The notes beneath the pieces were generated by a model. The model made no database searches. It was given only the letters and a program-made list of their open reading frames with translations, and was not told the origin of the DNA. Of a stretch of DNA of 64,000 nt, positions 1,765-34,258 are shown piece by piece. The DNA comes from Rhodococcus sp. ARC_M5. GTDB taxonomy: Bacteria > Actinomycetota > Actinomycetes > Mycobacteriales > Mycobacteriaceae. Every line of letters begins with the position of its first letter. Position 1 is the stretch's first letter. The stretch covers positions 1-64,000 of the forward strand of contig NZ_JALGQE010000015.1 of assembly GCF_022810405.1 (NCBI RefSeq). Direction: 5' to 3'. Both the position numbers and the translations under genes were made by a program.

Positions 1765-1786
1765 ACTACTAACCAGCATAGTATTT
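1765..1786. promoter_or_regulatory. BlaI-type dyad operator 1
   Basis: TACTA at 1767-1771 and TAGTA at 1779-1783 are separated by 7 bases, the same geometry as seven other copies in the window. The only gene start it can serve is leftwards: the 41-codon frame and the propeller lipoprotein. The gene to its right (1824-2852) ends here and is read towards it. Confidence 0.75.
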
Positions 1787-1823
1787 CGGGCAGGTCAGGC
1801 CGAAGTGCCCATCCGGTTCGGTG

Positions 1824-2852
1824 TCATCGCAGATGCGCCGGTGCGTCGCCCGGGGTGATGCCGACGTGGACGTGGTCGCTGTGCACGTCGTCGGTGAAGA
1901 ATCCTGGACGGTCACCGTTGAGGTCGGTCGGACCTCCGACCTCGGTTGCGCCCAGTAGGGCTGCCGCAGTGACGAATTCGGAGATCGTTGGGTTGTTGAA
2001 GGGATCGTCGACAACGCGCCGACCGTTGATTTCTCGGATGTCCACCGCTCGTCCCACTGCGTGGTTGGACAAGCGCGGGTGCGGGAAGACGGTCTGGATG
2101 TGACCGGTGTGCATCACCTGCACTGCGTAGGTGAATCGATCGGCAAGTCCGAGCATGATCTGGAGCACATTGTTGTTGATGCGTCCGGTTCCGATGTCGA
2201 GTCGTGCAGGCTCGGAGAGCGTGATGCGAGGGCTGCTCAGCACCGACGACGCAGCGGCGGTCAGTGGTACTGGGGACCCAAGAGAGGTCAAAGGGTTGAT
2301 CTTTTCCACCGTCCAGGCCGCGCCAGCGGCGATGTCGCGCTTGAGCCGGATATCGAGTGCCATCTGCCGGGTCGTCTCAGCCGGCTGCGCGAGCGTGGGG
2401 CGTTGTAGGAGTTGGTCGAACAGCACGATCACTGCAGCACTCTCTGGACCGATTCCGGCGTACTGCGGATACACCACTCGCAGGGTGCTGGCGAGGGCCT
2501 CGTCGGGTTGAAGCAGTGCTGCCGTCGCCGCGACTTCGAGCGATACCCCTGCGGTGCGCAAGCTGTCGAGTACTCCTCCTCCCTCGCTCCAGCTGCCACC
2601 TGCTTCGAGGAAGCTCGTCGCTGCGCGTTTGATCTCGGGCATCACTTCGCCAGCTGTCGGCATCCACCGCCCCGGATTCACCGGGGCCGATGATCGACTG
2701 CTCGGTGCGCTCACGGCCGGGGACCGTGCGGGAGATGCGTTACTGCTCGGTGCGAGGCTGGGGGATTGTCTGTCGGCGGTGTTGATGGTGCAGCTGACTG
2801 TGAGCGGCAAAACCGCTGCGGCTGTGAGCAGTTGTCGACGGCTGACTGTGAT
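1824..2852 (-). CDS. Lipoprotein with M15-type peptidase-like domain
   Basis: A 342-residue exported protein. The N-terminus SRRQLLTAAAVLPLTVSC combines an RR motif with a lipobox ending in Cys. The C-terminal quarter has SNHAVGRAVDIREI and HSDHVHVG, which resemble the zinc-ligand motifs (HxxGxAxD and HxH) of M15 D,D-carboxypeptidases/VanY, so a peptidoglycan-related role is likely. No ATG, GTG or TTG fits the signal peptide. The best start is ATC at 2852-2850, six bases after AGGA in 'gaaaggaaacgcc'. It lies 50 bp after the PASTA remnant of the penicillin-binding protein gene and probably shares its transcript. Confidence 0.7.
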   Translation of the reverse strand: MTVSRRQLLTAAAVLPLTVSCTINTADRQSPSLAPSSNASPARSPAVSAPSSRSSAPVNPGRWMPTAGEVMPEIKRAATSFLEAGGSWSEGGGVLDSLRTAGVSLEVAATAALLQPDEALASTLRVVYPQYAGIGPESAAVIVLFDQLLQRPTLAQPAETTRQMALDIRLKRDIAAGAAWTVEKINPLTSLGSPVPLTAAASSVLSSPRITLSEPARLDIGTGRINNNVLQIMLGLADRFTYAVQVMHTGHIQTVFPHPRLSNHAVGRAVDIREINGRRVVDDPFNNPTISEFVTAAALLGATEVGGPTDLNGDRPGFFTDDVHSDHVHVGITPGDAPAHLR

Positions 2853-2901
2853 GGCGTTTCCTTTCGTGCGCGGGGGTCTCAAGGGTGAGTGTCGTGGGTG
2901 A

Positions 2902-3093
2902 TCACCGCGGCGGCGGTAGCGGCAGGCCGGGAATGTCGATACTGGGCGGCGCTGGCGTGGGCGTGCGGTCGGGGGCGGGGGAGCCGTCACTGATGTACAG
3001 CGTGATCAGCGATCCCGGGATCGCCGCGCCGGATGGGGATGTGCCGGTAGCGGTACCGCGAGCGCCCTGACCGGTGGTGGTGACGACGGTCAC
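2902..3093 (-). pseudogene. Detached PASTA tail of the penicillin-binding protein
   Basis: Directly after the TAG at 3096-3094 the same frame continues for 63 codons: a PASTA-like strand (VTVVTTTGQG), the helix-strand end (IPGSLITLYISDGS), then a proline-rich tail. This completes the PASTA domain that starts as VPEVSGMSQSSATSRLEAAEF in the upstream frame. It begins with GTG, but a free half PASTA domain has no obvious use. It would be made only by readthrough or reinitiation. Confidence 0.7.
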
Positions 3094-7143: not shown

Positions 7144-7164
7144 ACTACTATGTTGCATAGTAAT
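7144..7164. promoter_or_regulatory. BlaI-type dyad operator 2 (resB promoter)
   Basis: TACTA at 7146-7150 and TAGTA at 7158-7162 with a 7-base spacer, 33 bases upstream of the GTG start chosen for resB. Its position suits repression of the cytochrome c biogenesis operon by blocking RNA polymerase. Confidence 0.8.
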
Positions 7165-7195
7165 TGAGATGCAATCGTCGAAAGGGTGTGGCGGT

Positions 7196-8821
7196 GTGAC
7201 AGCTGATCAAACCCCGGCGCTCACATCGCAGGGACGGTTACGCAGAGCAATCGCTGCGGTGCGCAACAGGTGGCGGCAACTGACCTCGATGCGAACGGCA
7301 CTGGTGCTGCTGTTTTTGCTCGCTATCGCAGCAATCCCAGGCGCCCTGCTGCCACAGCGCAATCTCAACACCCAGGCGGTTGATTCCTACATCGCAGCGC
7401 GCCCGGCTCTCGGGGCCGTCATGGACACGCTGGAATTGTTCGACGTATTCGGAAGCTTCTGGTTCACCGCCATCTACGTCCTACTGTTTGTGTCGTTGAT
7501 CGGCTGCCTGACTCCCCGAATGATCGAACACGGTAAAGCCCTTCGCGCACAGCCAGTTCGCGTACCCCGAAACCTTTCGCGACTACCGCTTCATCATTCG
7601 GGCGCTCTCGCCGGTAGCCCGAAAACCGTCATCGACGACATCGCGCCCCACTTGAGAGGGTGGCGTACTGCCGTTAGGCCCGAGCCCGATGGGGCGCTCA
7701 CCCTCTCCGCCGAGAAGGGCTATACCCGCGAAGCGGGAAACCTACTTTTTCATTTCTCGCTGATCGGTCTGCTCGCGGCCATCGCCATCGGCAAGCTCTT
7801 CGGTTACGAAGGATCGGTCATCGTCATCGCCGACAACGGGCCCGGTTTCTGCAACACCTCGCCCGCCATCTACGACTCCTTCCGGGCCGGCAACAGCACC
7901 GACGGAACCGGGCTGGAGCCGTTCTGCATCAGAGTCAAGGACTTCAACGCCGACTACCTTGAGAACGGCCAGGCAGAGATGTTCACCTCGAACATCTCCT
8001 ACCAGTCCGCCGACGACATCGCCGCAGACACCTGGCGCGACTATCAACTCAAAGTCAACGAACCCCTCCGGCTCGGAGATGAACGCATCTACCTCACCGG
8101 CCACGGATACGCCCCCGAATTCACCGTGACCTTCCCCGACGGTCAGAGTCGAACCGAGGCCCTGCAGTTCCGGCCCGACGACGCCACCACGTTCCTGAGT
8201 AGCGGGGCGTTGCGTTTCGATCCACCCGGCGGGACCTATGCCACCGCCGATGAGCGACGCCGCGGCCAGATCGCCATCGAAGGCCTCTTCGCTCCCACTG
8301 CGCAATTCAACGGAACCCTGCTCTCCTCCCGCTTCCCGGACTTGGTCGATCCTGCTGTGGCAGTGGATATCTACAAAGGAGATACCGGCCTCGACACCGG
8401 CATACCCCAGTCGATCTTCTCCCTGGACCAGGAGATGATCAACCAGGGCCGACTTGTCAAGCAGGATCGGGTGAACCTGCGTCCCGGTGAATCGACGACC
8501 CTCACCGACGGCACCAACATTCGATTCAACGGCGCCAAGGAATTCGCCAACCTGCAGGTCGGATACGACCCCGCACAGTTGTGGGTGCTCGTGTTCGCGA
8601 TCACGATGATGACCGGACTGTTGGTCTCGCTGGTGATCAAGCGACGTCGAGTCTGGTTCCGTGTACTCCCGGCCGAAACAGGCCGATCGAGCGTGGAGAT
8701 GGGCGGGCTCGCCCGTACCGATCACGCCGGATGGGGACCCGAATTCGAGACCCTCCGCACCGAAATCTGGACGCCGCGGACAAAGAACCACTCCGAGACC
8801 CTCGATACAGAAACGGTGTAG
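7196..8821 (+). CDS. resB: Cytochrome c biogenesis protein ResB
   Basis: A 541-residue membrane protein of the ResB/Ccs1 family. It is half of the system II haem exporter/cytochrome c synthetase and works with CcsB on the outer face of the membrane. Visible are paired N-terminal helices (ALVLLFLLAIAAIPGALLPQRN, then a second near FWFTAIYVLLFVSLIGCLTPR), a third helix (LLFHFSLIGLLAAIAIGKLFGYEG), a large external domain, and a last helix (LWVLVFAITMMTGLLVSLVI). The GTG at 7196 has AAAGGG eight bases upstream; an ATG at 7169 is the alternative. The next gene starts four bases after the stop. Confidence 0.92.
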   Translation: MTADQTPALTSQGRLRRAIAAVRNRWRQLTSMRTALVLLFLLAIAAIPGALLPQRNLNTQAVDSYIAARPALGAVMDTLELFDVFGSFWFTAIYVLLFVSLIGCLTPRMIEHGKALRAQPVRVPRNLSRLPLHHSGALAGSPKTVIDDIAPHLRGWRTAVRPEPDGALTLSAEKGYTREAGNLLFHFSLIGLLAAIAIGKLFGYEGSVIVIADNGPGFCNTSPAIYDSFRAGNSTDGTGLEPFCIRVKDFNADYLENGQAEMFTSNISYQSADDIAADTWRDYQLKVNEPLRLGDERIYLTGHGYAPEFTVTFPDGQSRTEALQFRPDDATTFLSSGALRFDPPGGTYATADERRRGQIAIEGLFAPTAQFNGTLLSSRFPDLVDPAVAVDIYKGDTGLDTGIPQSIFSLDQEMINQGRLVKQDRVNLRPGESTTLTDGTNIRFNGAKEFANLQVGYDPAQLWVLVFAITMMTGLLVSLVIKRRRVWFRVLPAETGRSSVEMGGLARTDHAGWGPEFETLRTEIWTPRTKNHSETLDTETV

Positions 8822-8825
8822 CGCC

Positions 8826-9797
8826 ATGCCGATCGACGACAACCTCGCCCGCTGGAGCGACATCAGTTTCGAGACCGCCTTCGTGGTCTACCTTCTCGCC
8901 GCGATCCTGTTCATCGCACAACTCGCAACGACACGAACAGCGACTCTGAGCCGGGCCTCGAGTCTGCATCCGCAACTGATCGCAGCGACATCATCGACAC
9001 CGGGATACGTGCCGGTCCCCGAGCGAAGAGCCCCGTCCGAACGCCTGGGCCGCACGGGACTCGCCCTGGTAATGCTCGCACTCACTTTGCATATCGGGTC
9101 GATCGTCCTGCGCGGGATCGCCACTGGCCGCCCGCCGTGGGGAAACATGTACGAATTCGTCTCCGTCACATGCGCGGCCGGCATACTTGCCGGACTGATC
9201 GTGCTGCGCTCGGAGCAACTGCGCACACTATGGTTGTTCGTCCTCGTGCCGACCTTGATCCTGCTCTTCATTGCCGGAACTGTGCTCTATGCCAACGCGG
9301 CGCCCGTCGTACCAGCCTTGCAGTCGTATTGGCTCCCCGTGCACGTCTCGGTCGTCTCGCTCGGCAGCGGGGTGTTCCTGATCTCCGGTGCAGCCAGCAC
9401 ATTGTTCCTGATCCGGATCCGATATCCCAACAACAACGCCGTCCCCGACAGCAGAGTGGGCCGGATCGTCGCTCGTCTCCCCTCGGCGCACTCGCTCGAC
9501 GTGCTGGCGTACAAGACCACCATCTTCGCGTTTCCCCTGTTCGGAATCGGTGTCATCCTCGGCGCGATCTGGGCGGAGGCCGCGTGGGGTCGGTTCTGGG
9601 GCTGGGACCCGAAAGAGACGGTCTCATTCATCGCGTGGATCATCTACGCCGCGTACCTGCACGCCCGGGCCACCAGCGGGTGGCGTGACACCCGGGCCGC
9701 GTGGATCAACATCGCCGGATTCGTGGCCATGCTGTTCAACCTGTTCATCATCAACATGGTGGTCTCCGGACTGCATTCGTACGCGGGTTTGAACTGA
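8826..9797 (+). CDS. ccsB: Cytochrome c biogenesis protein CcsB/ResC (haem handling)
   Basis: A 323-residue polytopic protein. The tryptophan-rich WWD-type motif appears as WGRFWGWDPKETVSFIAWIIY, followed by conserved His in YLHARAT, and MYEFVS precedes the middle helices. These mark the CcsA/CcsB/ResC family that presents haem to ResB for ligation to apocytochrome CXXCH motifs. It starts four bases after resB, consistent with one transcript and a stoichiometric complex. Bases 9798-10092 downstream hold no gene I can support. Confidence 0.93.
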   Translation: MPIDDNLARWSDISFETAFVVYLLAAILFIAQLATTRTATLSRASSLHPQLIAATSSTPGYVPVPERRAPSERLGRTGLALVMLALTLHIGSIVLRGIATGRPPWGNMYEFVSVTCAAGILAGLIVLRSEQLRTLWLFVLVPTLILLFIAGTVLYANAAPVVPALQSYWLPVHVSVVSLGSGVFLISGAASTLFLIRIRYPNNNAVPDSRVGRIVARLPSAHSLDVLAYKTTIFAFPLFGIGVILGAIWAEAAWGRFWGWDPKETVSFIAWIIYAAYLHARATSGWRDTRAAWINIAGFVAMLFNLFIINMVVSGLHSYAGLN

Positions 9798-10092: not shown

Positions 10093-10725
10093 ATGAGACT
10101 CGGCCGCCCTACGGGGGCTCGCACACGCGAACAGAGCAGTCTGCCCGCCACGGCAACGGCATCCATCCTTGCCGTTGTACTCCTGGTCTCCGGATGTTCC
10201 GCAGGCGCCGACGCCGTGCCCTCCGGAGGTAGCTTCGATTTCGTTGCACCCGGTGGTCAAACCGACATCGTCTACGATCCCCCCGAAACGCGCGGAACCA
10301 TCGGTGAACTCGCCGGACCCGATCTGATGGAGGAAGGTAAGAACACCGCTCTGTCGGACTATGACGGCGAGGTGGTCGTGATCAATCTCTGGGGTCAGTG
10401 GTGCGGCCCCTGCCGCGGCGAAGCCGACGACCTCGAAGAGGTCTACGAAGCAACCCGCGAGCGCGGTGTGCAGTTCCTCGGTATCAATGTTCGAGATCCG
10501 CAGAAGGACAAAGCGCAGGACTTCGTTGTCGACAACAATGTCTCCTACGCCTCGATCTACGACCCCTCGATGCGGACGCTGATCGCCCTCGGCGGGAACT
10601 ACCCGACCAGCGTGATTCCCTCGACGCTGGTACTCGATCGAGAGCACCGGGTGGCGGCAGTGTTCATGCGTGCCCTCCTCGCCGAAGACCTGCTCCCTGT
10701 CGTCGAACGGATAGCAGACGAATGA
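10093..10725 (+). CDS. TlpA/ResA-type thioredoxin lipoprotein
   Basis: 210 residues: a signal peptide with lipobox LLVSGC, then a thioredoxin fold with the redox motif WCGPC in VVVINLWGQWCGPCRGE. The cis-Pro region is TSVIPSTLVL. Family members reduce the haem-binding cysteines of apocytochrome c or thiol groups outside the membrane, using electrons from CcdA. The stop overlaps the ccdA start (ATGA), so the pair is coupled. A decayed paralog lies at 31913-32229, with the same SVAPGG and GTIGEL-GPDL segments. Confidence 0.92.
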   Translation: MRLGRPTGARTREQSSLPATATASILAVVLLVSGCSAGADAVPSGGSFDFVAPGGQTDIVYDPPETRGTIGELAGPDLMEEGKNTALSDYDGEVVVINLWGQWCGPCRGEADDLEEVYEATRERGVQFLGINVRDPQKDKAQDFVVDNNVSYASIYDPSMRTLIALGGNYPTSVIPSTLVLDREHRVAAVFMRALLAEDLLPVVERIADE

Positions 10726-11543
10726 CTGTTCTTCTTGCCCAAGGCGGCGTTGGCTCGACGTTCCAAAATCTGGCATCGAGCGGACCTCTGGTACTGGCGA
10801 TCGCCGCATGTATGCTCGCCGGGCTGGTCTCGTTCGCGTCACCGTGCGTGGTGCCCCTGGTGCCGGGCTACCTGTCGTACCTGGCGGGCATCGCAGGTGC
10901 CGACGTGCCGTCGCTCGCCGCCGCCTCGACTGGTGAAGCACCGCCGAAGCTGGCAAGCCGCTGGCGCGTGGCAGGTGCAGCGGGGTTGTTCGTCGCCGGC
11001 TTCACCATCGTCTTCGTCCTCGCCACCGCCTCGATTTTCGGGGTCATCGGCACCCTGCGCATCAACGAACAGGTGCTTCAGCAGGTCGGCGGTGCCATCA
11101 CGATCATCATGGGCTTGACGTTCATCGGGTTCATTCCCGCATTCCAACGCGACACTCGATTCGCGCCGCAAACCATCTCGTCTCTTGCTGGAGCGCCGCT
11201 GCTCGGTGGCGTGTTCGCGCTCGGCTGGACGCCGTGCCTTGGCCCCACGCTCGCCGGGGTGTTGTCCGTTGCCGCTGGCACTGAAGGCGCAACCGCAGCG
11301 CGCGGCGTCACTCTCATCGTCGCCTACTGTCTGGGACTCGGTCTACCGTTCGTGGTCCTCGCGTTCGGCTCGAGTTCGGCGATGCGCGGTGTCGGCTGGC
11401 TACGGCGGAACTCGCAGAGAATCAAAGTGGCAGGCGGAGTGATCATGATCGCCGTCGGTGTCGCCCTGCTGACGGGGGTGTGGGGTCTGTTCATTGCCTG
11501 GATACGCAATGAATTCGTCAGTTCGGTTGTGTTACCCATCTGA
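10722..11543 (+). CDS. ccdA: Thiol:disulfide interchange membrane protein CcdA
   Basis: A 273-residue protein with about six helices. The two redox cysteines lie in FASPCVVPLVPGYLSYL and LGWTPCLGPTLAG, the duplicated P-C/PC motifs of CcdA. It moves reducing equivalents from cytoplasmic thioredoxin to the TlpA lipoprotein encoded just upstream. The ATG at 10722 overlaps the tlpA stop. With resB and ccsB it completes a system II set on this island. Confidence 0.93.
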   Translation: MTVLLAQGGVGSTFQNLASSGPLVLAIAACMLAGLVSFASPCVVPLVPGYLSYLAGIAGADVPSLAAASTGEAPPKLASRWRVAGAAGLFVAGFTIVFVLATASIFGVIGTLRINEQVLQQVGGAITIIMGLTFIGFIPAFQRDTRFAPQTISSLAGAPLLGGVFALGWTPCLGPTLAGVLSVAAGTEGATAARGVTLIVAYCLGLGLPFVVLAFGSSSAMRGVGWLRRNSQRIKVAGGVIMIAVGVALLTGVWGLFIAWIRNEFVSSVVLPI

Positions 11544-14213: not shown

Positions 14214-14441
14214 AGAAGAAATCCTCTGGGGTCGGTGTGGGTTCCCTGCGTCACCAGCGAAGGAAACGGAGCGCGGTGAGAGCCGCATGGGACTGTGTCC
14301 GGCCTCGCCGGCACCATTGTCGGGTATCGGCAGTCGTAGAGGGTTCCTCACGGTCGGCTGAGGCTTTCGCGTCGACGCTCGACGCCTGTGCCGTATGGGC
14401 GGCGAGTCGGCGTCGTTGACCCCGACTCACCGCACCTGCAA

Positions 14442-14462
14442 ACTACTATCATTCATAGTAGA
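14442..14462. promoter_or_regulatory. BlaI-type dyad operator 3
   Basis: TACTA at 14444-14448 and TAGTA at 14456-14460, spacer 7. It lies between divergent genes: the NlpC/P60 hydrolase (start 14213, leftwards) and a membrane protein (start 14495, rightwards). It is much closer to the rightward start (34 bases). Confidence 0.8.
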
Positions 14463-14494: not shown

Positions 14495-14998
14495 ATGACG
14501 ACTGTGACGATGCGTGACTGGCCGGCGCGCCGTTGGGTGGCCGCGTTACTGGGCGCGATGGTGGCCGCGCTGGTCGTGGCGATCCCCACCGGGATCATCC
14601 ACACTGCGTTCTACGTTCGAATGACCCCGGTGTTGTGGTGGAACTATCCGGTGTGGATTGCCACCGCAGTTCTCAGTGGCCTCATTCTTGCGACATACGT
14701 GAGCACTGGGCTGGCGTCGTCGGTTTCTTCCCGTGTAGGGGTCAGTGCGAATGCGTTGTCGTTGTTGGCAGTCGGATGTCCGATATGCAACAAACTGGTA
14801 GTGGTGGCGGTCGGGGTGAGCGGTGCTCTGGATCTATGGGCACCCGTGCAGCCCGTAATCGGAGTGATGTCGGTGGGGGTGATGGTGTGGGCTCTTCGAC
14901 TGCGAATCCGCGGGGAACGCGCGTGCCCTACTTCTCGCGTAGGTCAGGAGTTCGGCAACTCCGCTGGCTTTGGCGGTGCAGGCGCAGCAAAATTGTAG
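14495..14998 (+). CDS. Small polytopic membrane protein with CPICNK motif
   Basis: 167 residues with four predicted helices (VAALLGAMVAALVVAIPTG, WIATAVLSGLILATYVS, ANALSLLAVGCPICNKLVV, PVIGVMSVGVMVWALRL). A CxxC pair sits at the start of the third helix in GCPICNKLVVVAVG. I do not know the family name. The CxxC in a membrane helix near thiol-redox and copper genes suggests a redox or metal site, which is inference. It is under dyad operator 3. Confidence 0.65.
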   Translation: MTTVTMRDWPARRWVAALLGAMVAALVVAIPTGIIHTAFYVRMTPVLWWNYPVWIATAVLSGLILATYVSTGLASSVSSRVGVSANALSLLAVGCPICNKLVVVAVGVSGALDLWAPVQPVIGVMSVGVMVWALRLRIRGERACPTSRVGQEFGNSAGFGGAGAAKL

Positions 14999-23436: not shown

Positions 23437-23457
23437 ACTACTATCGTGCATAGTAGC
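23437..23457. promoter_or_regulatory. BlaI-type dyad operator 4 (lnt promoter)
   Basis: TACTA at 23439-23443 and TAGTA at 23451-23455, spacer 7, extended to CTACTAT/ATAGTAG. It lies 87 bases upstream of the lnt start on the plus strand. Confidence 0.8.
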
Positions 23458-23542
23458 AACCGAGGGTGGTCAGGTGGCGCTATGCCGTACATGAGAAAAG
23501 AGCCATGCAGGCATGCTCGATATCGAGTCCAGCGCAACAACA

Positions 23543-25136: not shown

Positions 25137-25157
25137 ACTACTAACCATGATAGTAAT
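25137..25157. promoter_or_regulatory. BlaI-type dyad operator 5
   Basis: TACTA at 25139-25143 and TAGTA at 25151-25155, spacer 7, between lnt (ends 25108) and the M23 peptidase gene (starts 25272) on the same strand. Confidence 0.8.
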
Positions 25158-25271: not shown

Positions 25272-26057
25272 GTGGCACAACACCGTATGACCCGCATGAC
25301 CGACCGACGTCGACAGTTGATGGACTGTGACGTGCAGGGAGTGGCGGTGACGCCGAGAGGGCGGCATCGCGCTCGGGCGCGCGCCACCGAGCGCCGCGGC
25401 AGTGTCGCTGTCGGTATTGCGGTGGCAGCGGGCGCTCTGGTCACGGCGGGTGCCCAATATGCGAGTCCCGCACAGGCGCAGGCAGTCCCCGTGCACGAAG
25501 CGACACCGATGCAGGACCCGGTGGCCGAATACTTGCCTCAGATCCTCGCCATACCGGAGATCTCCAATATCAACGATGCGATCGAGCAGTTGGCGAAGGG
25601 GCAACGAAGGGCAGAGGAGAGCGCTGCGCGTGATGCAGCGGCGCTGCGACCACTCGTCGTTCGTCCGGTCGCCGGGACCCTGACCTCGGATTTCGGTCCA
25701 CGATGGGGGACTACGCACACCGGGCTCGACATCGCCAACGCTATCGGAACTCCCGTCTACGCGGCAGCCGACGCTACCGTGCTCGACTCCGGTCCTGCAG
25801 ACGGATTCGGCCTCTGGGTACGTCTTCAACATGACGATGGAACGACAACGGTCTACGGGCACATCGATCAAACCTTGGTGACAGTGGGGCAACGAGTACA
25901 AGCCGGTGAGCAGATCGCCACCGTCGGCAATCGTGGCCAATCGACCGGGCCTCACCTGCATTTCGAGGTCGTCGACGCGGCGGGGAGCAAGGTCGATCCT
26001 CAGGAGTGGCTCGCCTCTCGGGGTGTCGCGCTGTCCGACGCGGCTGTTCGGTCGTAG
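25272..26057 (+). CDS. M23 family peptidase (secreted)
   Basis: About 261 residues. A basic N-terminus and hydrophobic segment (VAVGIAVAAGALVTAGAQYA) precede a linker and a C-terminal M23/LytM domain. Zinc ligands are in HTGLDIANAIG, the second motif in TVYGHID, and GPHLHFEV. The start is uncertain; GTG 25272 follows GAGG, and ATG 25287 is the next choice. It probably cuts peptidoglycan cross-bridges or activates amidases. It is a close paralog of the convergent gene at 26259-27446: both share GFGLWVR, HDDGT and VGQRV. Confidence 0.85.
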   Translation: MAQHRMTRMTDRRRQLMDCDVQGVAVTPRGRHRARARATERRGSVAVGIAVAAGALVTAGAQYASPAQAQAVPVHEATPMQDPVAEYLPQILAIPEISNINDAIEQLAKGQRRAEESAARDAAALRPLVVRPVAGTLTSDFGPRWGTTHTGLDIANAIGTPVYAAADATVLDSGPADGFGLWVRLQHDDGTTTVYGHIDQTLVTVGQRVQAGEQIATVGNRGQSTGPHLHFEVVDAAGSKVDPQEWLASRGVALSDAAVRS

Positions 26058-26258: not shown

Positions 26259-27446
26259 CTACGAGTCACGGTCCGAACCGGTGATGGTGGCTCCGCGTTC
26301 CGCGAGCCAAAGTCTGGGGTCGACCTTGTTGCCGGCGGGTGTGTCGACCTCGAAGTGCAGATGTGGACCGGTGGAGATACCCCGGTTTCCTACCGTCGCA
26401 ATTTCTTCACCAGCAGTGACGCGTTGACCTACGGTCACGAGGTTGTCGTTGTTGTGCCCGTAGGTCGTTACGGTGCCGTCATCGTGGCGTATACGCACCC
26501 AGAGTCCGAAGCCCTGGGCCGGTCCCGCGCTGATCACCTCGCCGTCCGCAACGGCGACGATCGGTGTACCGGTGGAGTTGGCGATGTCGATTCCTTGATG
26601 GGCGCGGCCGTCGCCGAAGGTCGAGGTCAACGTTCCTGTTGTCGGCGCACGATACTTTCCGTTGCTCGACCCTGTTGTGCCGGTAGGGGATTGCGGGGCG
26701 GCCGACGGATGATCGCCCGCCTCGGGTGTCGTGGTTTCGGGTGTCGTTGTTTCAGATGTCGTGCCGGGTGCCGACGTTTCAGGCACAGTGGCGTCGGGTT
26801 CGAGCGCGGGCAGTTCGGGCGTCGACGGGTCGGCGGCCGACTCGGGGTCCTGAGTGTCCTGAGTGTCCTGAGTGTCCTGGGTGCCTTGGGCGGTCGGTTG
26901 TTCGGTCGAGGGCTCGGCGTTCGACCTGCCGGGTGGGACCGCCGCATGTCCGCGCGACGAGGTGTGCGGGGTGGCCGGATCGTGGGGAGTCTCGGCGGCC
27001 GCGAGTGTGGATGCAAGTGTGGCGACGTCCATCGACGACACCAGTCGGGGGAGAACTGTGGGGTCGATGTCGTCGATCGGCGCGAGACAGGGGATCAGTC
27101 GCGAAAGGGCTCCCGTTGGTCCGTCAGCTGTATCGGTGGCTCCGATCGTGCCCACGAGGCAGGAGACGATGCGGCTCTGTGGGCCGGCCAGGTCGTCGAG
27201 AGCGCCGTTGGCGCGAATCTCGCGTAGTGCGCCGACGACGAGATCGAGGACCTCCTGTTGGACGTGCGGGTCCGATTGGGCCTGCGCGGGGAAGGCAGGC
27301 GGCGGCGCAGCCGGATCGGCGTCCGGGGCTGCAGACGCCGTGGGTGCCAGCGCGAGGATGCCTCCCACGAACGCGGTACCGACGAGGATGCGAGTACCCC
27401 ACCGAGTTCGGTGCGCCATGTACGAGGACGAGGGCAGAGGTCTCAT
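26259..27446 (-). CDS. M23 family peptidase with long repetitive linker
   Basis: 395 residues. The signal peptide ends ALAPTASA-AP. A helical N-terminal domain (about residues 40-150) is followed by a long Pro/Thr/Glu-rich linker containing four TQD units, then the M23 domain with HQGIDIANSTG, TTYGHN and GPHLHFEV. The ATG at 27446 follows AGGAGGA. The gene converges on its paralog at 25272-26057. The linker would let the domain span the cell wall. Divergent upstream lies dyad operator 6, 369 bases away. Confidence 0.87.
   Translation of the reverse strand: MRPLPSSSYMAHRTRWGTRILVGTAFVGGILALAPTASAAPDADPAAPPPAFPAQAQSDPHVQQEVLDLVVGALREIRANGALDDLAGPQSRIVSCLVGTIGATDTADGPTGALSRLIPCLAPIDDIDPTVLPRLVSSMDVATLASTLAAAETPHDPATPHTSSRGHAAVPPGRSNAEPSTEQPTAQGTQDTQDTQDTQDPESAADPSTPELPALEPDATVPETSAPGTTSETTTPETTTPEAGDHPSAAPQSPTGTTGSSNGKYRAPTTGTLTSTFGDGRAHQGIDIANSTGTPIVAVADGEVISAGPAQGFGLWVRIRHDDGTVTTYGHNNDNLVTVGQRVTAGEEIATVGNRGISTGPHLHFEVDTPAGNKVDPRLWLAERGATITGSDRDS
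26847..26882. repeat. Four tandem 9-bp repeats in the M23 linker
   Basis: The unit gtcctgagt is repeated at 26847, 26856 and 26865, and with one change at 26874. It encodes the TQD triplets in the linker of the minus-strand M23 protein. The unit is a multiple of three, so copy change would only alter linker length. Confidence 0.85.
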
Positions 27447-27814
27447 GTCGGTGGTCCTCCTGGACGGCAACTGCATACCTGGCAGTAATTCAGGTCGCCT
27501 TCGAGTCAAGGCGACACGCCGCATCACTATTACACCCTTTCCGCACAAGCACCATCAGTCACAGTGAATTACATCGGTAACATTCGCACCCTGCGACCCA
27601 TTTCGATCGTCGGGTTGTTTCTCGGGAGCCGAAGTTCATGTACGTAATATCTTCTGCGCCAGAAGGACTCGGCGTCGCTGGACGGCCTTCATCGTGCGCC
27701 TCGATGGGGACGGTCGTCTTCGGCGAACGGCCGGAGAGCTGTGTGCTGGCACTGTGAGGCCCGAGGGCGAAGGGGACCGCGAAAGCGTTGACGGCGTGCA
27801 GGATCCACGTTGCT
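27447..27814. other. Intergenic region without a supported gene
   Basis: Between the leftward M23 gene and dyad operator 6 I see no frame with a credible start or composition, and no strong hairpin. It contains the divergent promoter of the M23 gene near 27447-27500. Confidence 0.5.
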
Positions 27815-27842
27815 ACTATCGAAGATAGTAGATCGTGTAGTA
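27813..27842. promoter_or_regulatory. BlaI-type dyad operator 6 with an extra half-site
   Basis: TACTA at 27815-27819 and TAGTA at 27827-27831 with a 7-base spacer (CTACTATCGAAGATAGTAG, a near-perfect palindrome). A further TAGTA follows at 27838-27842. It is 64 bases before the TlpA start at 27896. Confidence 0.8.
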
Positions 27843-27895: not shown

Positions 27896-28531
27896 GTGCA
27901 GCGGGTGACGACACGCTGGTCCCTACTTGCGATCATCGTCATCGTGACAGTTGTTGGAGCGCTGGCATTGTGGTCTCGAGATCCCTCGACCCAGTCGGTG
28001 GGGTCCGCAGGATCGGCACCTCACGTCGAGGACGAGGATCTCCCGTCGGCAGTGATCGCTACCCGTGCTGCCCTCGAGCCGTGCCCGACCTCGTCGCCGG
28101 TTCCGTCCCCCGTAACTGGCGAGCTCGTCGGTACGTCCGCACGATGCTTGGGAACGTCGGACTTATCCGATCTGGGGACCTCCCTGGCTGGGCAACCCAC
28201 ATTGCTCAATGTCTGGGCGTCGTGGTGCGGTCCGTGTAGACAGGAGATTCCGGTTCTGGCCCAGTACGCCGCAGAACCGGATGCGGTTCGGGTCGTCGGT
28301 CTCAACGTCCAAGACGATGCCGATGCGGCATTGAGCCTGCTCACCGAGCTGGGAGTGCACTATCCCTCGTTCGATCAGGCCGACGCGGCGTTGCAGACAC
28401 TTGACGCGCCCCCTGTCCTGCCCCTGAGTTTCTTGGTCCAGAGCGATGGAACGATCGAGCGCATCACCTCGACGCCGGTGTTCTACGACCCGAGTCAGGT
28501 GCGGGAGGCGGTAACAGCGCTTGTGCGCTGA
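27896..28531 (+). CDS. TlpA-type thioredoxin, membrane anchored
   Basis: 211 residues from the GTG at 27896; a second GTG lies at 27905. It has one N-terminal anchor (SLLAIIVIVTVVGALALW), not a lipobox, then a thioredoxin fold with WCGPC in LLNVWASWCGPCRQEIPVL and cis-Pro in VLPLSFLV. A CPTSS...RCLG pair of Cys before the fold may form a disulfide. It is the first gene after dyad operator 6 and precedes the multicopper oxidase by 97 bp, so it may help fold or reduce extracytoplasmic copper proteins. Confidence 0.88.
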   Translation: MQRVTTRWSLLAIIVIVTVVGALALWSRDPSTQSVGSAGSAPHVEDEDLPSAVIATRAALEPCPTSSPVPSPVTGELVGTSARCLGTSDLSDLGTSLAGQPTLLNVWASWCGPCRQEIPVLAQYAAEPDAVRVVGLNVQDDADAALSLLTELGVHYPSFDQADAALQTLDAPPVLPLSFLVQSDGTIERITSTPVFYDPSQVREAVTALVR

Positions 28532-28534
28532 TCT

Positions 28535-28570
28535 CAGCACGAGCACGAGCACGAGCACCAGCACCAGCAA
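28535..28570. repeat. Short hexamer repeat (gagcac/cagcac)
   Basis: Six imperfect copies of a GC-rich hexamer immediately follow the TlpA stop. They lie between genes and encode nothing credible. A simple slippage repeat. Confidence 0.7.
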
Positions 28571-28628
28571 CGCGGCGAGGATCGAACGCCCGCCGGCGGA
28601 CGGACTTCTACAGAATTGGGAGATGTGT

Positions 28629-30128
28629 ATGACCGGGCAGCGGGCAGGTGCGTTCTCGCTCACGCGCCGCAACTTTCTCGCGCTGAGCGCGGCCGGAACG
28701 AGTGCCGTCGTGTTGGGGGCATGCGGCAATGGCTCGTCCGCAACAGCAGTCGTCGGACCGGACTCCGATGTGGTGGGACAGGCCGAGGACGCGCGCCGCT
28801 CGGCTACCGGCAGACAAGTCGATATTTCCTTGAGTGCTCAGCCCAGCACGATCGACCTCGGCGGAGTGCAGGTACAGACCTGGACTTTCGGCGACAGACT
28901 CCCCGGTGCCGAGATTCGCCTGAGCCGAGGTGATGTGTTGCGCGCACAGCTCGACAACCGCCTCGAGCAGGAGACGACGATCCATTGGCACGGAATCGCC
29001 TTGCGCAACGACATGGACGGAGTGCCGGGCCTGACTCAGCCGGCTGTGGCTTCCGGTGACTCGTTCGGCTACGACTTCACCGTGCCCGACGCGGGCACGT
29101 ACTTCTTTCACCCTCACGTCGGTACCCAACTCGACAGAGGACTGTATGCACCGCTGATCGTCGAGGACCCCGCCGACGGCTCGGACTACGACCTCGAAGC
29201 CGTCCTGGTCCTCGACGACTGGCTCGACGGGGTAGCCGGCGACCCCGATCGAGAACTCGAACGGCTGCGCAGCGAGGGCATGTCGATGGGCGGCATGTCG
29301 ATGAGCGCGCCCACCGCCCAGTCGCCTCTCGGTGGCGACACCGGCGACGTGAGCTACCCGTACTACCTGATCAACGGCAAGATCGGGGCCGATCCCATCG
29401 TGCTCGGCGGACGGCCGGGCCAGCGGCTGCGCCTGCGCATCATCAACGCAGCTGCCGACACGGCCTTCCGTTTCGCAGTGGGGGGGCATCCTCTCACTGT
29501 TACTCACAGCGACGGATTTCCGGTTCAGCCCGAGCAGGCGCAATGCTTGTTGATAGGGATGGGAGAGCGTTACGACGCAATCATCACCTTGCAGGACGGG
29601 GCGTTTCCGATTGTCGCCGCCGCGGAAGGTAAGGACGGGAGCGGGTTCGCTGTGTTGCGTACCGGGCCAGGCGCCGCGCCGCAGTCCTCAGTCCGGCCTG
29701 CCGAACTCTCTGCAGCCCCGGTGATGGCTGATCGACTGAGGTCGCTCGATACGGTCCGCTTGTCCGCACGCGAGCCGGATCGCACGTACGACATCGCTCT
29801 CGGGATGGAGATGGGCGGGTACACCTGGACGCTCAACGGTGAGACGTACGAGCAGCACACCCCCCTCGACGTTCGCGAAGGCGAAAGAGTACGACTTCGC
29901 TTCGTCAACGCCACCACGATGTTTCATCCCATGCATCTGCACGGACACACCTTCGAGGTTGTCAACGGTGCCGGATCAGGCCCCCGGAAGGACACCTCGC
30001 TGGTCTTGCCGAACCAAACTGTCGAAGTCGACTTCGACACCGACAATCCCGGCCAGTGGCTTCTGCACTGCCACAACCTCTATCACGGGGAAGCGGGAAT
30101 GATGACATCGGTGTCCTACCTGGCGTGA
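28629..30128 (+). CDS. Tat-exported multicopper oxidase lipoprotein
   Basis: 499 residues. The twin-arginine signal LTRRNFLALSAAG ends with lipobox VLGAC, so the folded enzyme is probably exported and lipid-anchored. Copper ligands: HWHG (about residues 119-122), HPH (161-163), HPMHLHGH (about 433-440) and HCHNLYHGEAGMM (about 479-491), which together form the T1 and trinuclear T2/T3 sites of a CueO/CopA-type oxidase. A Met-rich stretch (MSMGGMSMSAP) suits Cu(I) oxidation. The ATG at 28629 follows GGGAG. It detoxifies Cu(I) to Cu(II) outside the membrane. Confidence 0.93.
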   Translation: MTGQRAGAFSLTRRNFLALSAAGTSAVVLGACGNGSSATAVVGPDSDVVGQAEDARRSATGRQVDISLSAQPSTIDLGGVQVQTWTFGDRLPGAEIRLSRGDVLRAQLDNRLEQETTIHWHGIALRNDMDGVPGLTQPAVASGDSFGYDFTVPDAGTYFFHPHVGTQLDRGLYAPLIVEDPADGSDYDLEAVLVLDDWLDGVAGDPDRELERLRSEGMSMGGMSMSAPTAQSPLGGDTGDVSYPYYLINGKIGADPIVLGGRPGQRLRLRIINAAADTAFRFAVGGHPLTVTHSDGFPVQPEQAQCLLIGMGERYDAIITLQDGAFPIVAAAEGKDGSGFAVLRTGPGAAPQSSVRPAELSAAPVMADRLRSLDTVRLSAREPDRTYDIALGMEMGGYTWTLNGETYEQHTPLDVREGERVRLRFVNATTMFHPMHLHGHTFEVVNGAGSGPRKDTSLVLPNQTVEVDFDTDNPGQWLLHCHNLYHGEAGMMTSVSYLA

Positions 30129-30249: not shown

Positions 30250-30606
30250 ATGCAGGGTTTGGGAGAGCTCGAAGCTCTGGTGATGGACGTGGTGTGGAAT
30301 ACCAGCGCCGCAGTCCGGGTTCGTGATGTCATCGATCAACTCGAGGACGGTCGAGAACCGGCGTACACCACGATTCAGACGGTGCTCGACAATTTGCACC
30401 GTAAAGGCTGGGTACACCGACAACGCAACGGACGGGCATATTGGTACGAAGCCACCCGAAGCAGGGAAGAAGCCGCCTCCGACGCCTTGCGAATACTTCT
30501 CGAATCGACCGGCGACCCGACGAGCGTGCTGCTGCACTTCGCCCGCGGCGCTTCCGATGACGAATCGAAGGTGCTCACCCGCGGTCTGAAAGAGCGTAAG
30601 AGGTGA
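30250..30606 (+). CDS. BlaI/MecI/CopY family transcriptional repressor
   Basis: 118 residues. A winged-helix N-terminal domain (LGELEALVMDVVWN, then YTTIQTVLDNLHRKGWVHRQRNGRAYWYEA) and a dimerisation/cleavage tail follow the BlaI/MecI pattern exactly. The ATG at 30250 has GGAGG eight bases upstream. The stop overlaps the GTG of the M56 protease gene. Such repressors bind short dyads as dimers and are removed by proteolysis. The eight TACTA-N7-TAGTA sites in this window are the obvious candidate targets. None lies in front of this gene itself. Confidence 0.93.
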   Translation: MQGLGELEALVMDVVWNTSAAVRVRDVIDQLEDGREPAYTTIQTVLDNLHRKGWVHRQRNGRAYWYEATRSREEAASDALRILLESTGDPTSVLLHFARGASDDESKVLTRGLKERKR

Positions 30607-31565
30607 CTGCCGTACTCCTGTGGGCCCTCGGTGGGCTGTTGGTTGCGGCTGCCGCGCCATTGCTGATGAGGTCGATGATCGACAGAGGTATCGATGCGCA
30701 CGTCACGCTCTTGACGTGGTCGGCGCTCGTTGTGGGCACCTTGGTCAGCATTGCGGTACCGGTCGTGCTCAGTGCGATCCCCAGTCATGGGGGCGTGACG
30801 ACCCTGGTCGACATCGCACACCAATGCTGGCTCGCCCTTCAGGGCGACATACCTGCCCGCGTCGAGGCCATCGTCGGGGTTGTCGGGATTGCGATGTTGG
30901 GCTGCGGCGCAGTCCGCTGGATCATTCACCTGAGGCGCGCAGTGTGTGAGCGACGGCGAGTGTACGAGCGGCACATCGATCTGCTGCGCATCATCGCTGG
31001 AGGCGTCGGGTTTTCCGGTTCGAATCAACCCGCGTCGACCTTGTGGCTTCCGTTGGACAGTCCTCTCGCGTACAGCGTCGCGGGACGACCGGCGATGGTC
31101 GTGGCCAGCGAGGGGCTACGTACGCAGTTGACGCCTGCTGAAGTCGAGGCGGTCCTCGCACACGAACGTGCACACATCGATGGCCGGCATCATCTGCTCG
31201 TAGGCATTGCCGAGTCGGTGGCCTATGCGTTTCCGTGGCTACCGATCATGCGAGCGTCACCTTCGCTCGTGCGCGCTCTGGTCGAACTCGACGCGGACGC
31301 CCGCGCAGCCCGCTCGCACGGACGAGACCCCGTGCGGCGCGCTCTGACTTCGCTGCGCCCGCACCCTGTTCCTCTGCCCGCCCTCGGTATGGTTTCCGAT
31401 GCCACCGTTGTGCGGCTCGATCGTCTCGCCGTGGACCGAGTGATCCCGCATGCTCCCCTCCGGTGGGCGCGGGCGTTCGTAGCGTGCACCGCCGTTGCCC
31501 TGCCTGCGTTACCAGTAGTGGCCCTGCTGGGGGCCATGACGTTGGCATCCTGCGCGGTGGGATGA
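30603..31565 (+). CDS. M56 family membrane metalloprotease (BlaR1-like sensor without ligand domain)
   Basis: 320 residues with four hydrophobic segments: VLLWALGGLLVAAAAPLLM, ALVVGTLVSIAVPVVLSAI, AIVGVVGIAMLGCGAVRW and a C-terminal AFVACTAVALPALPVVALLGA. The cytoplasmic zinc motif is HERAH in VLAHERAHIDGRHHLLVG, with a conserved ELDADARA downstream. It lacks the C-terminal penicillin-binding domain of BlaR1/MecR1, so the signal is not an external beta-lactam domain. The GTG start overlaps the blaI stop, so repressor and protease are made together. Confidence 0.9.
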   Translation: MTAVLLWALGGLLVAAAAPLLMRSMIDRGIDAHVTLLTWSALVVGTLVSIAVPVVLSAIPSHGGVTTLVDIAHQCWLALQGDIPARVEAIVGVVGIAMLGCGAVRWIIHLRRAVCERRRVYERHIDLLRIIAGGVGFSGSNQPASTLWLPLDSPLAYSVAGRPAMVVASEGLRTQLTPAEVEAVLAHERAHIDGRHHLLVGIAESVAYAFPWLPIMRASPSLVRALVELDADARAARSHGRDPVRRALTSLRPHPVPLPALGMVSDATVVRLDRLAVDRVIPHAPLRWARAFVACTAVALPALPVVALLGAMTLASCAVG

Positions 31566-32233: not shown

Positions 32234-32710
32234 TCATTCTTCGATGGTTCGTCCGGTGTGTCGCCACGCGAGCATGCCGCCTTGTAGTTCGACGACATCG
32301 GTGTAGCCGAGAGCGGCCAGGTCTTTCGCCGCGGTGGCGCTCATTGTCCCGGTACGGCAGTAGATCGCCAGCGGTGTGGTCCGGTCGGGCGGCAACGTCG
32401 CGGCCTGTTGTCGGATCTGGTCGAAGGGAAGGCTCGAGTCGGTTCCAGGGAGCTGGCCCTCGTTGGGGGTATGGACGTTGATCGTGACTCGGCCGGGATC
32501 GGCGATTGCGGCGGCGAAGTCAGCGGGATCGAGCAGTTCTGCCCGTGTAGCAACGGGCATTGACGCGGTGGGCTCAGTGGCCTCGCCGCCGGTACATCCA
32601 GCGAGTGCAAGGACGAGGACAGTCAGTATCGATGCCGGACTACGGAGCGTCGATCGGGACACCGAATGCGGTGCCATCGCATCGAGGTGATCACCGAAAG
32701 GCACACGCAT
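32234..32710 (-). CDS. Rhodanese-domain lipoprotein
   Basis: 158 residues. The signal peptide ends in lipobox LALAGC. The single rhodanese domain has the active cysteine in AIYCRTGTMSA and the C-terminal end VVELQGGMLAWRHTGR. It likely moves sulfane sulfur outside the membrane, or binds soft metals through its active Cys. The ATG at 32710 (MRVPFGD) was taken; an ATG at 32677 is also possible. It lies 17 bp after the Lgt-like gene on the same strand and probably shares its dyad-controlled promoter. Confidence 0.85.
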   Translation of the reverse strand: MRVPFGDHLDAMAPHSVSRSTLRSPASILTVLVLALAGCTGGEATEPTASMPVATRAELLDPADFAAAIADPGRVTINVHTPNEGQLPGTDSSLPFDQIRQQAATLPPDRTTPLAIYCRTGTMSATAAKDLAALGYTDVVELQGGMLAWRHTGRTIEE

Positions 32711-32727
32711 AAAAATACGTTCGGTGA

Positions 32728-34161
32728 TCACGAGAGCACCTGCGACGCTGCGAGGACGCCGATGAGGACCGCGCAGCAGATGAGCGAGACAGTGAGTCGG
32801 CCTCGACGAGTGTGCGCGTCCACTCGAAACAGAAACAGGCCTTGCCGGACCAATGTGTATGCGGCAATACTCCCCAGGAAGACCAGCCCTCCGACGGGAA
32901 GGTCGACCTGAAGTACCGCGGCGAGCGCAACTCCCGCGATCAACAGGGCTGCAGCGGCCTCGTAGAGCTGAACCGGAATCCTCCTCGTCGCCAGGGTGCG
33001 ATCGGACGAAAACAGGCCCCACCGAGATCGAGTCGGACGCCCCGAACAGCAGCCCGCCAAGAAGCATCCCGGACGACCGATCGCCATGCCGAGAAACAAT
33101 CCCGGGGTGGTTGCATCCAGGACTGCGCCGACGTCCATACCCCCGAGTGCTCCGCCGATGACCAAGGTGCCGAGCGAAACGAGGAGGAAGCCTTGTATGC
33201 ACGCTCCTGCGCGGATGAAAGTAGATATCGGTCGACGGTGCAAGATCAAGTACCAAACCTTGGCACCGATATATCCCAAAACGCAACTCAGAGCTGAAAT
33301 TGCAACAGCAGCAGCAACATTGGCATCCATGCGTGAGAGCAGGAATCCCTGAACAATCAATGCAACCACCGCTCCCGCGGCTACCAACGCCGGCCAACTC
33401 CACACCCGCACAGCGGGACCGTATGTCAGTAGCGCAGTGCGCGCGGTGAGCACAGAGTTCTGCTGCCGTTCGCTACTGTCTGCGCCCCCGTCGATGCGTC
33501 GCGCACTCACCTCCCACTCCCCGCTGGCAATGCCCTGAATACGGGTGGTCGCGGCGAACCGGCCTCCAGCGGCAGGACGTGATTTCACGACCAGAGTCCG
33601 ATCGAAACCGACCTTCTCGGTCGATGCATGGCCCTCGACTTCCACCCGCGATCCAGTGAAGCGAATCGCCACGTCGTGGCTGGGCTCGGCATCGGCCCCG
33701 CCGACACCCCAGTACGTCACCGCAAGCCCCAGCGGCTCGACCTGGGAAATCTCATCGGTACAACTGGTGGCTGGTGAGCGCTTGGGTGCGTAACTCTGCG
33801 GTGCGGGCGCAACAGCTTCAGGCGTGCGGGCACGTGGGCGCTCCGGCGGCGCTGCAGTATCGATCGTCGGTTCTGCGGCCTGGGCCGACGCTCGCGGTGG
33901 GGTAGTGGAGGCCGGCGCGAAAGCCCGGGCGACAGTGGGATGGAGTGCACCGCTGCCGGGCGAGTGGCCCCTGCTTCGAAGATAATCGGCGGCGGCGACG
34001 CTGACCGCAGAATGTGGGGCCACCGCTGAGAGGGGATGCCTTGGCTGGGGCTCAGTACGTATGGCACCGGGGTGGGGAGCCGGTGGGCCGCCCCCGGATC
34101 GTGTCGCCGTGGTTCGTCGTTTGTGCGCTTTCGATCGCGACTTGCTGGATTTCTTTCCCAC
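32728..34161 (-). CDS. Divergent Lgt-family protein with an N-terminal extension
   Basis: 477 residues. The C-terminal 260 residues form a polytopic domain with the Lgt signature region GLFLGMAIGRPGCFLAGCCSGRPT and the later PVQLYEA, as in prolipoprotein diacylglyceryl transferases. The usual HGG segment is replaced by ACIQGF, so activity is uncertain. The first 110 residues are basic then Pro/Ala-rich and disordered. Residues about 115-240 look like a beta domain (VTYWGVGG, VAIRFTGSRVEV) before the first helix. The start is the ATG at 34161; two dyad operators lie 55-95 bases upstream. Confidence 0.8.
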   Translation of the reverse strand: MGKKSSKSRSKAHKRRTTATRSGGGPPAPHPGAIRTEPQPRHPLSAVAPHSAVSVAAADYLRSRGHSPGSGALHPTVARAFAPASTTPPRASAQAAEPTIDTAAPPERPRARTPEAVAPAPQSYAPKRSPATSCTDEISQVEPLGLAVTYWGVGGADAEPSHDVAIRFTGSRVEVEGHASTEKVGFDRTLVVKSRPAAGGRFAATTRIQGIASGEWEVSARRIDGGADSSERQQNSVLTARTALLTYGPAVRVWSWPALVAAGAVVALIVQGFLLSRMDANVAAAVAISALSCVLGYIGAKVWYLILHRRPISTFIRAGACIQGFLLVSLGTLVIGGALGGMDVGAVLDATTPGLFLGMAIGRPGCFLAGCCSGRPTRSRWGLFSSDRTLATRRIPVQLYEAAAALLIAGVALAAVLQVDLPVGGLVFLGSIAAYTLVRQGLFLFRVDAHTRRGRLTVSLICCAVLIGVLAASQVLS

Positions 34162-34213
34162 AGGTTGCCTCCATCATCGCCTGTCCGGGCGACGGCGTCT
34201 CGACAGCAGTCAA

Positions 34214-34258
34214 CTACTATGCTCGATAGTAGCTGAACTACTAAGCGTTATAGTAGGA
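34214..34258. promoter_or_regulatory. BlaI-type dyad operators 7 and 8 in tandem
   Basis: Two complete dyads: TACTA 34216-34220 with TAGTA 34228-34232, and TACTA 34240-34244 with TAGTA 34252-34256. Their centres are 24 bp apart, near two helical turns. They lie between the divergent Lgt-like gene (start 34161) and the SHOCT gene (start 34320), and could control both and bind cooperatively. Confidence 0.85.

Follow-up and report, generated by a model that had tools for sequence, protein, structure and literature searches.

Eight copies of an inverted repeat, TACTA-N7-TAGTA, lie in a 64,000-nucleotide window (bases 1-64000 of the 98-kb contig C7) of the draft genome (G000) of the soil bacterium Rhodococcus sp. 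ARC_M5, on an island that also encodes a BlaI-family repressor, an adjoining M56-type membrane protease and copper ATPases. This dyad appears to serve a BlaI/M56 clade of actinobacteria as operator. We read the genes behind it as a regulon for the copper-induced replacement of poisoned extracytoplasmic machinery, with a probability of about 0.62; in this reading the binding and proteolysis of BlaI, the inducer and the replacement function are all presumed.

Dinucleotide-preserving shuffles of the window (n = 100) gave an expectation of 0.00 for the eight exact matches, and tolerating one mismatch added a single site, at 27826, overlapping the copy at 27814. All eight dyads are intergenic in our own gene models of stretch 1-34600, which is 14.5% intergenic (P ~2e-7, presuming that ResB starts 3' of its dyad, at ATG 7169 or GTG 7196, and that the open reading frame (ORF) 25095-25961(-) is spurious). 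The sequence-only reading that had proposed the dyads was thus right about their existence and their position outside genes, and placed three of them one base high (27815, 34216 and 34240; correctly 27814, 34215 and 34239). It had also put each in a promoter region; for seven of the eight, a supported gene start is about 120 bp away or less, and the exception, 1767, is 327 bp from its likely target (gene starts in this analysis are approximate). The A/T flanks it described are present in part only, with 'aac' preceding six of the eight sites. The dyads differ from the GC-rich CsoR/RicR-type palindrome (TACCCC/GGGGTA).

1767..1783, dyad 1, TACTAACCAGCATAGTA, likely operator of the F510_1955 propeller lipoprotein gene
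7146..7162, dyad 2, by exact search, likely operator of a resB-ccsB-tlpA-ccdA operon
14444..14460, dyad 3, by exact search, between divergent genes
23439..23455, dyad 4, by exact search, likely operator of lnt
25139..25155, dyad 5, likely operator of an M23 gene; a corresponding site precedes the M23 gene in R. erythropolis
27814..27830, dyad 6, divergent operator, with the one-mismatch copy at 27826
34215..34231, dyad 7, by exact search, tandem operator
34239..34255, dyad 8, 24 bp past dyad 7; the same tandem spacing occurs before R. erythropolis Lgt, where the second copy has one mismatch

Genes adjoining these sites were assigned from Pfam and NCBIfam matches.

631..1440, minus, F510_1955 family glycosylhydrolase (propeller lipoprotein; NCBIfam NF045728, above cut-off)
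7169..8821, plus, ResB, cytochrome c biogenesis (PF05140, E 1.9e-148; start uncertain, ATG 7169 or GTG 7196)
8661..9797, plus, CcsB (Cytochrom_C_asm, PF01578; start overestimated)
10093..10725, plus, TlpA-like thioredoxin (PF00578)
10398..11543, plus, CcdA (PF02683; 77% to an annotated CcdA; start overestimated)
13146..14351, minus, NlpC/P60 hydrolase (PF00877)
14495..14998, plus, conserved protein with no Pfam match; its R. erythropolis counterpart has a dyad 27 bp upstream
23513..25108, plus, Lnt, apolipoprotein N-acyltransferase, accessory copy (PF20154, PF00795)
25272..26057, plus, M23 metallopeptidase (PF01551, E 9e-32)
26259..27548, minus, M23-domain endopeptidase (PF01551)
27896..28531, plus, TlpA-like thioredoxin (PF08534)
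28521..30128, plus, multicopper oxidase (PF07731/PF07732/PF00394)
30250..30606, plus, BlaI-family repressor (PF03965, E 2.3e-25; 89.6 bits, cut-off 22.6)
30603..31565, plus, M56-type membrane metalloprotease (HERAH at 187-191; C75 and C317)
32728..34161, minus, Lgt, accessory prolipoprotein diacylglyceryl transferase (PF01790)
34320..34571, plus, small membrane protein (weak SHOCT match, 16.1 bits, below the cut-off of 27)

These matches bear out the proposed linkage of cytochrome c and thiol redox, lipoprotein acylation, wall hydrolases and copper oxidation behind the dyads, and the BlaI/M56 pair announced at 30250-31565 is present; the 'SHOCT protein' is a small membrane protein whose SHOCT match falls below the cut-off. 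Dyad 6 heads a tlpA-multicopper oxidase-blaI-M56 operon, and the tandem dyads 7 and 8 separate Lgt from the small membrane protein. On an R. erythropolis plasmid, an annotated F510_1955 family gene has a dyad 62 bp upstream. The island also encodes a class A penicillin-binding protein (3094-5649, minus) with transglycosylase and transpeptidase parts and a PASTA-like end, with no dyad directly before it.

The whole genome contains 16 exact dyads: eight on C7, all in the window, five on contig C39, one on C2 and two overlapping on C58; the backwards pattern gave five matches. The 40.7-kb contig C39 very probably belongs to the same island as C7, because C7-type and C39-type dyads sit on one contig in two relatives (C8 of G299; C1 of G314, 4.46 Mb). 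The island then holds 13 of the 16, and the three others precede another blaI (C2) and cydAB (C58). Frequent occurrence elsewhere on the chromosome had been named in advance as grounds for abandoning the proposal; with three of 16 exact matches off C7 and C39, this test went in its favour, and computation supports restriction of the dyads to the island. Allowing one mismatch added C39:3074, C39:5335, C7:27826 and ten scattered sites. The overlapping dyads on C58 (183014-183033; L097 ~3015) are of a C/G form, TACTACTACTCGTAGTAGTA, immediately 5' of cydAB, and from them a chromosomal BlaI may also control cytochrome bd oxidase.

The C39 dyads enlarge the gene list first drawn up, which holds, by LspA, a second Lnt, CtaD, CopC/CopD/CtaG and DUF3105.

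C39 dyad 630, LspA with divergent Lnt
C39 dyad 3074 (one mismatch), CDF transporter with divergent CopD/CtaG protein
C39 dyad 5335 (one mismatch), M23-BlaI-M56 operon, BlaI at C39:6546-6887
C39 dyad 7864, CtaD
C39 dyad 9749, CopC-CtaG
C39 dyad 15210, M23 gene
C39 dyad 16805, DUF3105 gene

Sites 3074 and 9749 fall inside or at the start of the longest ORF calls, so the true gene starts there are taken to lie further in. With Lgt, LspA and Lnt each behind a dyad, the whole lipoprotein maturation route is behind dyads; a second LspA, at C39:25419, has none ahead.

That BlaI reads the dyad is predicted from co-occurrence, spacing and position. An exact dyad lies within 300 bp upstream of blaI at 22 of 79 loci, against 23 of the 1168 control tiles drawn from those loci. 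When the spacing was varied from 0 to 20, only 7 stood out: 93 matches in 76 loci (next 10, at spacing 10), 13 in the window plus C39 (next 3) and 27 in five plasmid stretches (next 4), and swapping the half-site order gave at most one match in any of the three sets. Across 401 Mycobacteriaceae genomes the tight dyad occurs 200 times, in 72 genomes, against five matches of the backwards control (both totals summed by hand). A BlaI match at E 1e-25 or better was found in 63 of these 72 genomes and in 35 of the 329 others (Fisher 5e-38); the 37 genomes of the genus divide into 13 with both tight dyad and BlaI and 24 with neither. The reversed pattern is a usable null for the tight motif and a poor one for the loose motif; spacing and order controls took its place.

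The repressors themselves suggest what sets the operator. The presumed recognition helix reads TTIQTVLDNL in the C7 BlaI, TTILTVVTHL in that of C39:6546 and TTVMTVLDNL in seven of the eight repressors with a dyad directly upstream; a second subclade, including the repressors of the dyad-free locus L093 and of C39:21510, has TTVMSTMDNL. Each of the dyad plasmids L092 and L094-L096 encodes at least one 'TV' repressor, and the C2 BlaI is 'TV' too, with a C-form dyad about 45 bp ahead of its gene. We infer that 'TV' versus 'ST' at this position selects the operator. A single repressor, as first proposed, is probably not the arrangement, since C7 and C39 each have a dyad-headed operon encoding a BlaI/M56 pair (the C39 dyad with one mismatch) and eight of the 13 tight-dyad genomes of the genus have C39-type BlaI matches only. 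The operator is apparently common to two or more BlaI/M56 pairs.

The dyads recur before similar genes in other species (plasmid gene lists were compiled by hand and omit some features, such as a small gene at L095 33259). On the R. erythropolis plasmid (L092) they precede TlpA, a PASTA protein, F510_1955, Lgt, TlpA-CcdA-ResB-CcsB, M23, Lnt and the counterpart of 14495-14998. Rhodococcus sp. WAY2 (L094) has them before GNAT, two CtaD genes, DUF3105, rhodanese and NlpC/P60, plus site 21163, which has no annotated target. In M. gilvum (L095) one lies 51 bp before hyp-TlpA-BlaI-M56, and others between RipA and that operon and before M23 and rhodanese; two one-mismatch dyads precede Lnt, and four others are near Ig-like, L,D-transpeptidase or small unknown genes. 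M. chubuense (L096) has two exact dyads, before Ig-like-hyp-TlpA-BlaI-M56 and before Lnt, and six more with one mismatch. A 42-kb plasmid stretch of R. fascians (L135), in which BlaI is not annotated, has one between LspA and Lnt and one before ResB, where Lnt ends. On the Mycolicibacterium plasmids, overlapping pairs lie exactly 15 bp apart (L095 33087/33102 and 35136/35151; L096 35704/35719 and 47925/47940), at least one member of each pair being mismatched, unlike the 24-bp tandem before Lgt.

The nearest BlaI loci, 99% identical, are those of Rhodococcus sp. KRD162 and KRD197. Two other Rhodococcus genomes (L013 and L014, 99% BlaI identity) share five of the window dyads, N7 included, which is consistent with recent spread of the island. 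Leaving out the near-identical loci L013-L015, as in the spacing control, 76 further BlaI loci, mostly from Pseudonocardiales, yielded 85 context-unique dyads; 73 of these had a gene start close by. The labels enriched beside the dyads, relative to 1358 background genes, were BlaI (15), multicopper oxidase (8), NlpC/P60 (8), M23 (4), CsoR (4), CcdA (3) and F510_1955 (2; p 0.03); DUF305 (5), Lnt (1), CtaD (1) and DUF3105 (1) were not significant. Gene calls were crude, and 37 of the 102 adjoining labels had no match in the reference set.

The C7 BlaI, 118 residues long, contains no cysteine, and its best NCBIfam match, CopY_TcrY (TIGR02698), scores 44.4 bits against a cut-off of 121.95. Direct copper sensing in the manner of CopY is therefore unlikely, and the signal should come through the M56 protease. 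The protein adjoining BlaI is, by family and motif, an M56 membrane zinc protease; its HExxH is predicted to face the cytoplasm, which the helix layout of a structural model fits (mean predicted local distance difference test (pLDDT) 84.8, predicted template modelling score (pTM) 0.84; residues 63-68 below pLDDT 50). HExAH is invariant in M56 alignments of 39 and 35 rows. The protein ends at residue 320, at its last helix, and Pfam matched the peptidase only, finding no penicillin-binding sensor domain. The best structural match of the model, BlaR1 (8exp), is weak despite a probability of 1.00 (E 0.027, query-normalised template modelling score 0.34).

C75 lies in a PxHG...HxxC loop, in a short helix that the model places between long helices 2 and 3, and C317 is at the C-terminal end, near the end of the last helix. 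Given a cytoplasmic protease domain, both are probably extracytoplasmic. Of 62 M56 proteins, 50 have both cysteines and 11 neither, the one exception being a truncated sequence. Both are present at 38 of 40 dyad loci and 12 of 22 dyad-free loci, counts that shared ancestry inflates; L014, L052, L067 and L029 (wrong ORF) were excluded, and 20 of the 76 loci yielded no M56 protein. The 39-row alignment was chosen for both cysteines plus plasmid proteins, so the invariance of C75 and C317 in it is partly by choice. The chromosomal C2 and C5 M56 proteins have neither cysteine. We read the C75/C317 pair as a candidate copper or thiol-redox sensor. C317 (window 31551-31553) sits in LASC after a basic stretch and a hydrophobic helix, which has the look of a lipobox at the wrong end of the protein. 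A strict C-terminal lipobox was rejected, as it fits 10 of 20 dyad-locus and 3 of 10 dyad-free proteins (in an extraction that was faulty and missed many loci), and we claim only the cysteine.

The replacement reading draws on reported copper damage. Accounts of copper stress in E. coli describe impaired lipoprotein acylation at the Lgt step and inhibited L,D-transpeptidases (PMC6538781, PMC6593411), and a review describes cytochrome c biogenesis as a potent periplasmic copper target (PMC7558416). In the resting cell, BlaI dimers on TACTAT-N5-ATAGTA would repress roughly a dozen promoters, among them the ones that drive their own operons. Copper, or thiols damaged by copper outside the membrane, would activate the M56 protease and remove BlaI, presumably by proteolysis. 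This would open a lipoprotein maturation set (Lgt, LspA, Lnt), cytochrome c maturation with a thiol relay (ResB, CcsB, CcdA, TlpA), the CtaD subunit of a haem-copper oxidase together with helpers for copper insertion (CtaG, CopC/CopD), and the wall hydrolases and copper oxidase. Cytosolic copper export would probably be left to CsoR: CsoR-like palindromes lie close to two copper-ATPase regions in the window (19328 and 35222), which suggests CsoR for the cytosol and BlaI/M56 for the outside. Palindromes of this GC-rich form, TACCCC..GGGGTA, occur at 35222, 39004 and 44813, with an imperfect one at 19328, a second operator class on the same island.

Elsewhere in their genomes, G000 and the relative G314 keep separate copies of Lgt, LspA, Lnt, ResB and CtaD (in G000: Lgt and LspA on C78, Lnt on C74, ResB on C47, CtaD on C12). 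G299 has separate Lgt, LspA, ResB and CtaD, and no housekeeping Lnt could be distinguished among its six Lnt matches. The four G000 contigs hold no exact dyad, and their one-mismatch matches are tens of kb from the housekeeping copies. If the reading is true, the operator, the repressor/protease pair and the gene list would name extracytoplasmic copper targets in actinobacteria, which the sources consulted argue mostly from single enzymes of Gram-negative bacteria; copper resistance would include replacing the victims, beyond export, and M56 proteases that lack a penicillin sensor would gain a candidate sensing site. More tentatively, and on balance doubtfully, the island could confer a transmissible 'target replacement' resistance, in which the cell does more than remove copper and brings in a full second set of thiol-dependent machines for making lipoproteins, cytochromes c, the oxidase and the wall. 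The M56 protease would then sense copper or thiol oxidation outside the membrane through C75 and C317, possibly gauging whether lipoprotein acylation still works. As a distinct stress system under one repressor, the original proposal keeps its linked gene set and BlaI-type operator and probably gains further repressors.

Several results weigh against the reading. Nine of the 72 dyad genomes have no close BlaI and 35 genomes with a close BlaI have no tight dyad, and the co-occurrence is partly plain genetic linkage on islands. At L013-L015, the nearest loci to the window, blaI has no dyad immediately ahead of it; there, as in the window, the operator of the operon upstream would serve. A plasmid stretch of Rhodococcus sp. 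ZPP (L093) has BlaI/M56 and copper genes and no dyads. In a class-wide scan (394 genomes, 136 matched) the loose motif was not enriched over its backwards control, which is inflated because ATC and ATG are common codons; single loose matches are uninformative. Two sites, L092 42551 and L135 2865, run into the 3' end of lnt and so are not intergenic. Lgt, LspA and ResB are absent beside dyads in the 76 loci, and Lnt and CtaD occur there only in the single, non-significant cases given above, so the lipoprotein part of the regulon is seen mainly in Rhodococcus and Mycolicibacterium. Accessory and housekeeping LspA, ResB and CtaD, the three pairs aligned, show no clear cysteine loss, and the idea that accessory copies have shed cysteines was dropped. 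Copper, as opposed to general envelope stress, is our best guess for the inducer, from gene context.

The same BlaI regulon could instead be a self-sufficient cargo kit that matures the island's own lipoproteins and cytochromes in any host. The island does carry envelope and respiratory cargo (the propeller protein, M23 proteins, CtaD), and similar clusters occur on plasmids of several genera; but such a kit would be redundant in G000 and G314, with their separate copies, unless the host enzymes fail, and the chosen machines match reported copper targets, so we consider it unlikely. Quite unlikely, too, is a single network of island and chromosome, including cydAB, in which the chromosomal C2 BlaI is the main reader or several BlaIs are interchangeable. 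The shared TACTA-N7-TAGTA core at C2 and C58, the 'TV' residues of the C2 BlaI and the site ahead of cydAB speak for it; the base after TACTA is C in both C2 half-sites as against T in 22 of 26 island half-sites, and no tight dyad occurs in any of the 24 genomes of the genus that lack a BlaI match at E 1e-25.

A response to cell-wall damage or beta-lactams, as in classic BlaI/BlaR1, would account for the M23 and NlpC/P60 hydrolases and the BlaI/M56 kinship, and the penicillin-binding protein at 3094-5649 would suit it, though no dyad directly precedes that gene. The M56 protein, however, stops at residue 320 without a penicillin-binding sensor domain, the window proteins scanned with Pfam included no serine beta-lactamase family match (one metallo-beta-lactamase-fold/rhodanese protein lies at 39056-40417), and a copper oxidase and P-type ATPases surround the system; we regard this explanation as very unlikely. 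That the dyads are remnants of a mobile-element repeat with no regulatory role is hardly credible: the island is plasmid-like and C39 has IS21-like genes, yet the sites are nearly always intergenic and precede the same kinds of gene across species, with strict spacing while N7 and flanks vary.

Among known systems, staphylococcal BlaI/BlaR1 and MecI/MecR1 likewise set a Penicillinase_R repressor beside a membrane zinc protease, but have the penicillin-binding sensor domain missing from the island M56, and another regulon. The CopY/TcrY copper repressors of Firmicutes belong to the same superfamily, and CopY has a C-terminal metal-binding cysteine motif; the island BlaI, far below the cut-off and cysteine-free, could not use such a site. 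Its nearest solved relative is the M. tuberculosis BlaI (Rv1846c) of the BlaI/BlaR pair (2g9w, E 6e-13), reportedly studied by Sala et al. in 2009. Beyond beta-lactamase, the M. tuberculosis regulon is described as taking in atpH and sigC (PMC8265638) and rv1305 and atpE (PMC7924339), and BlaI as binding the Rv1303 and Rv2151c promoters (PMC12565901); unlike the island regulon, the targets named in the parts of these sources available to us include no lipoprotein, cytochrome c or copper genes.

In the sources consulted, the closest precedent is the lit2-lgt2 operon of Listeria and Enterococcus, which is induced by copper and encodes second enzymes of lipoprotein modification, an additional Lgt among them; it lies on a mobile element for copper resistance (PMC8275575, PMC7387801). 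As described there, it is a single operon of Firmicutes with Lit2 chemistry, whereas the island combines Lgt, LspA and Lnt with cytochrome c, oxidase and wall genes at many separate promoters. NlpE/Cpx of E. coli likewise ties copper to failed lipoprotein acylation; it is a two-component system, and the portions consulted of PMC6538781 and PMC6593411 describe no replacement set. The window's CsoR, CysK2, MFS and LpqS-position genes resemble rv0846-rv0850 of the mycobacterial RicR/CsoR copper regulon, as far as excerpts of PMC7924339 describe it, but that regulon uses a different repressor and operator and concerns cytosolic copper. Among the literature matches listed, none dealt with a copper regulon under BlaI or with accessory lipoprotein genes of actinobacteria.

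Two further features of C39 complete the island. A third BlaI with an M56 partner, at C39:21510 (L006), lies beside ArsR, a P-type ATPase, the second LspA and CadD, in a stretch with no dyad. An M23 gene (L005; C39 11447-11683 and 14079-14969) is seemingly split by IS21-like istA/istB (11789-14019), with dyad 15210 still upstream.

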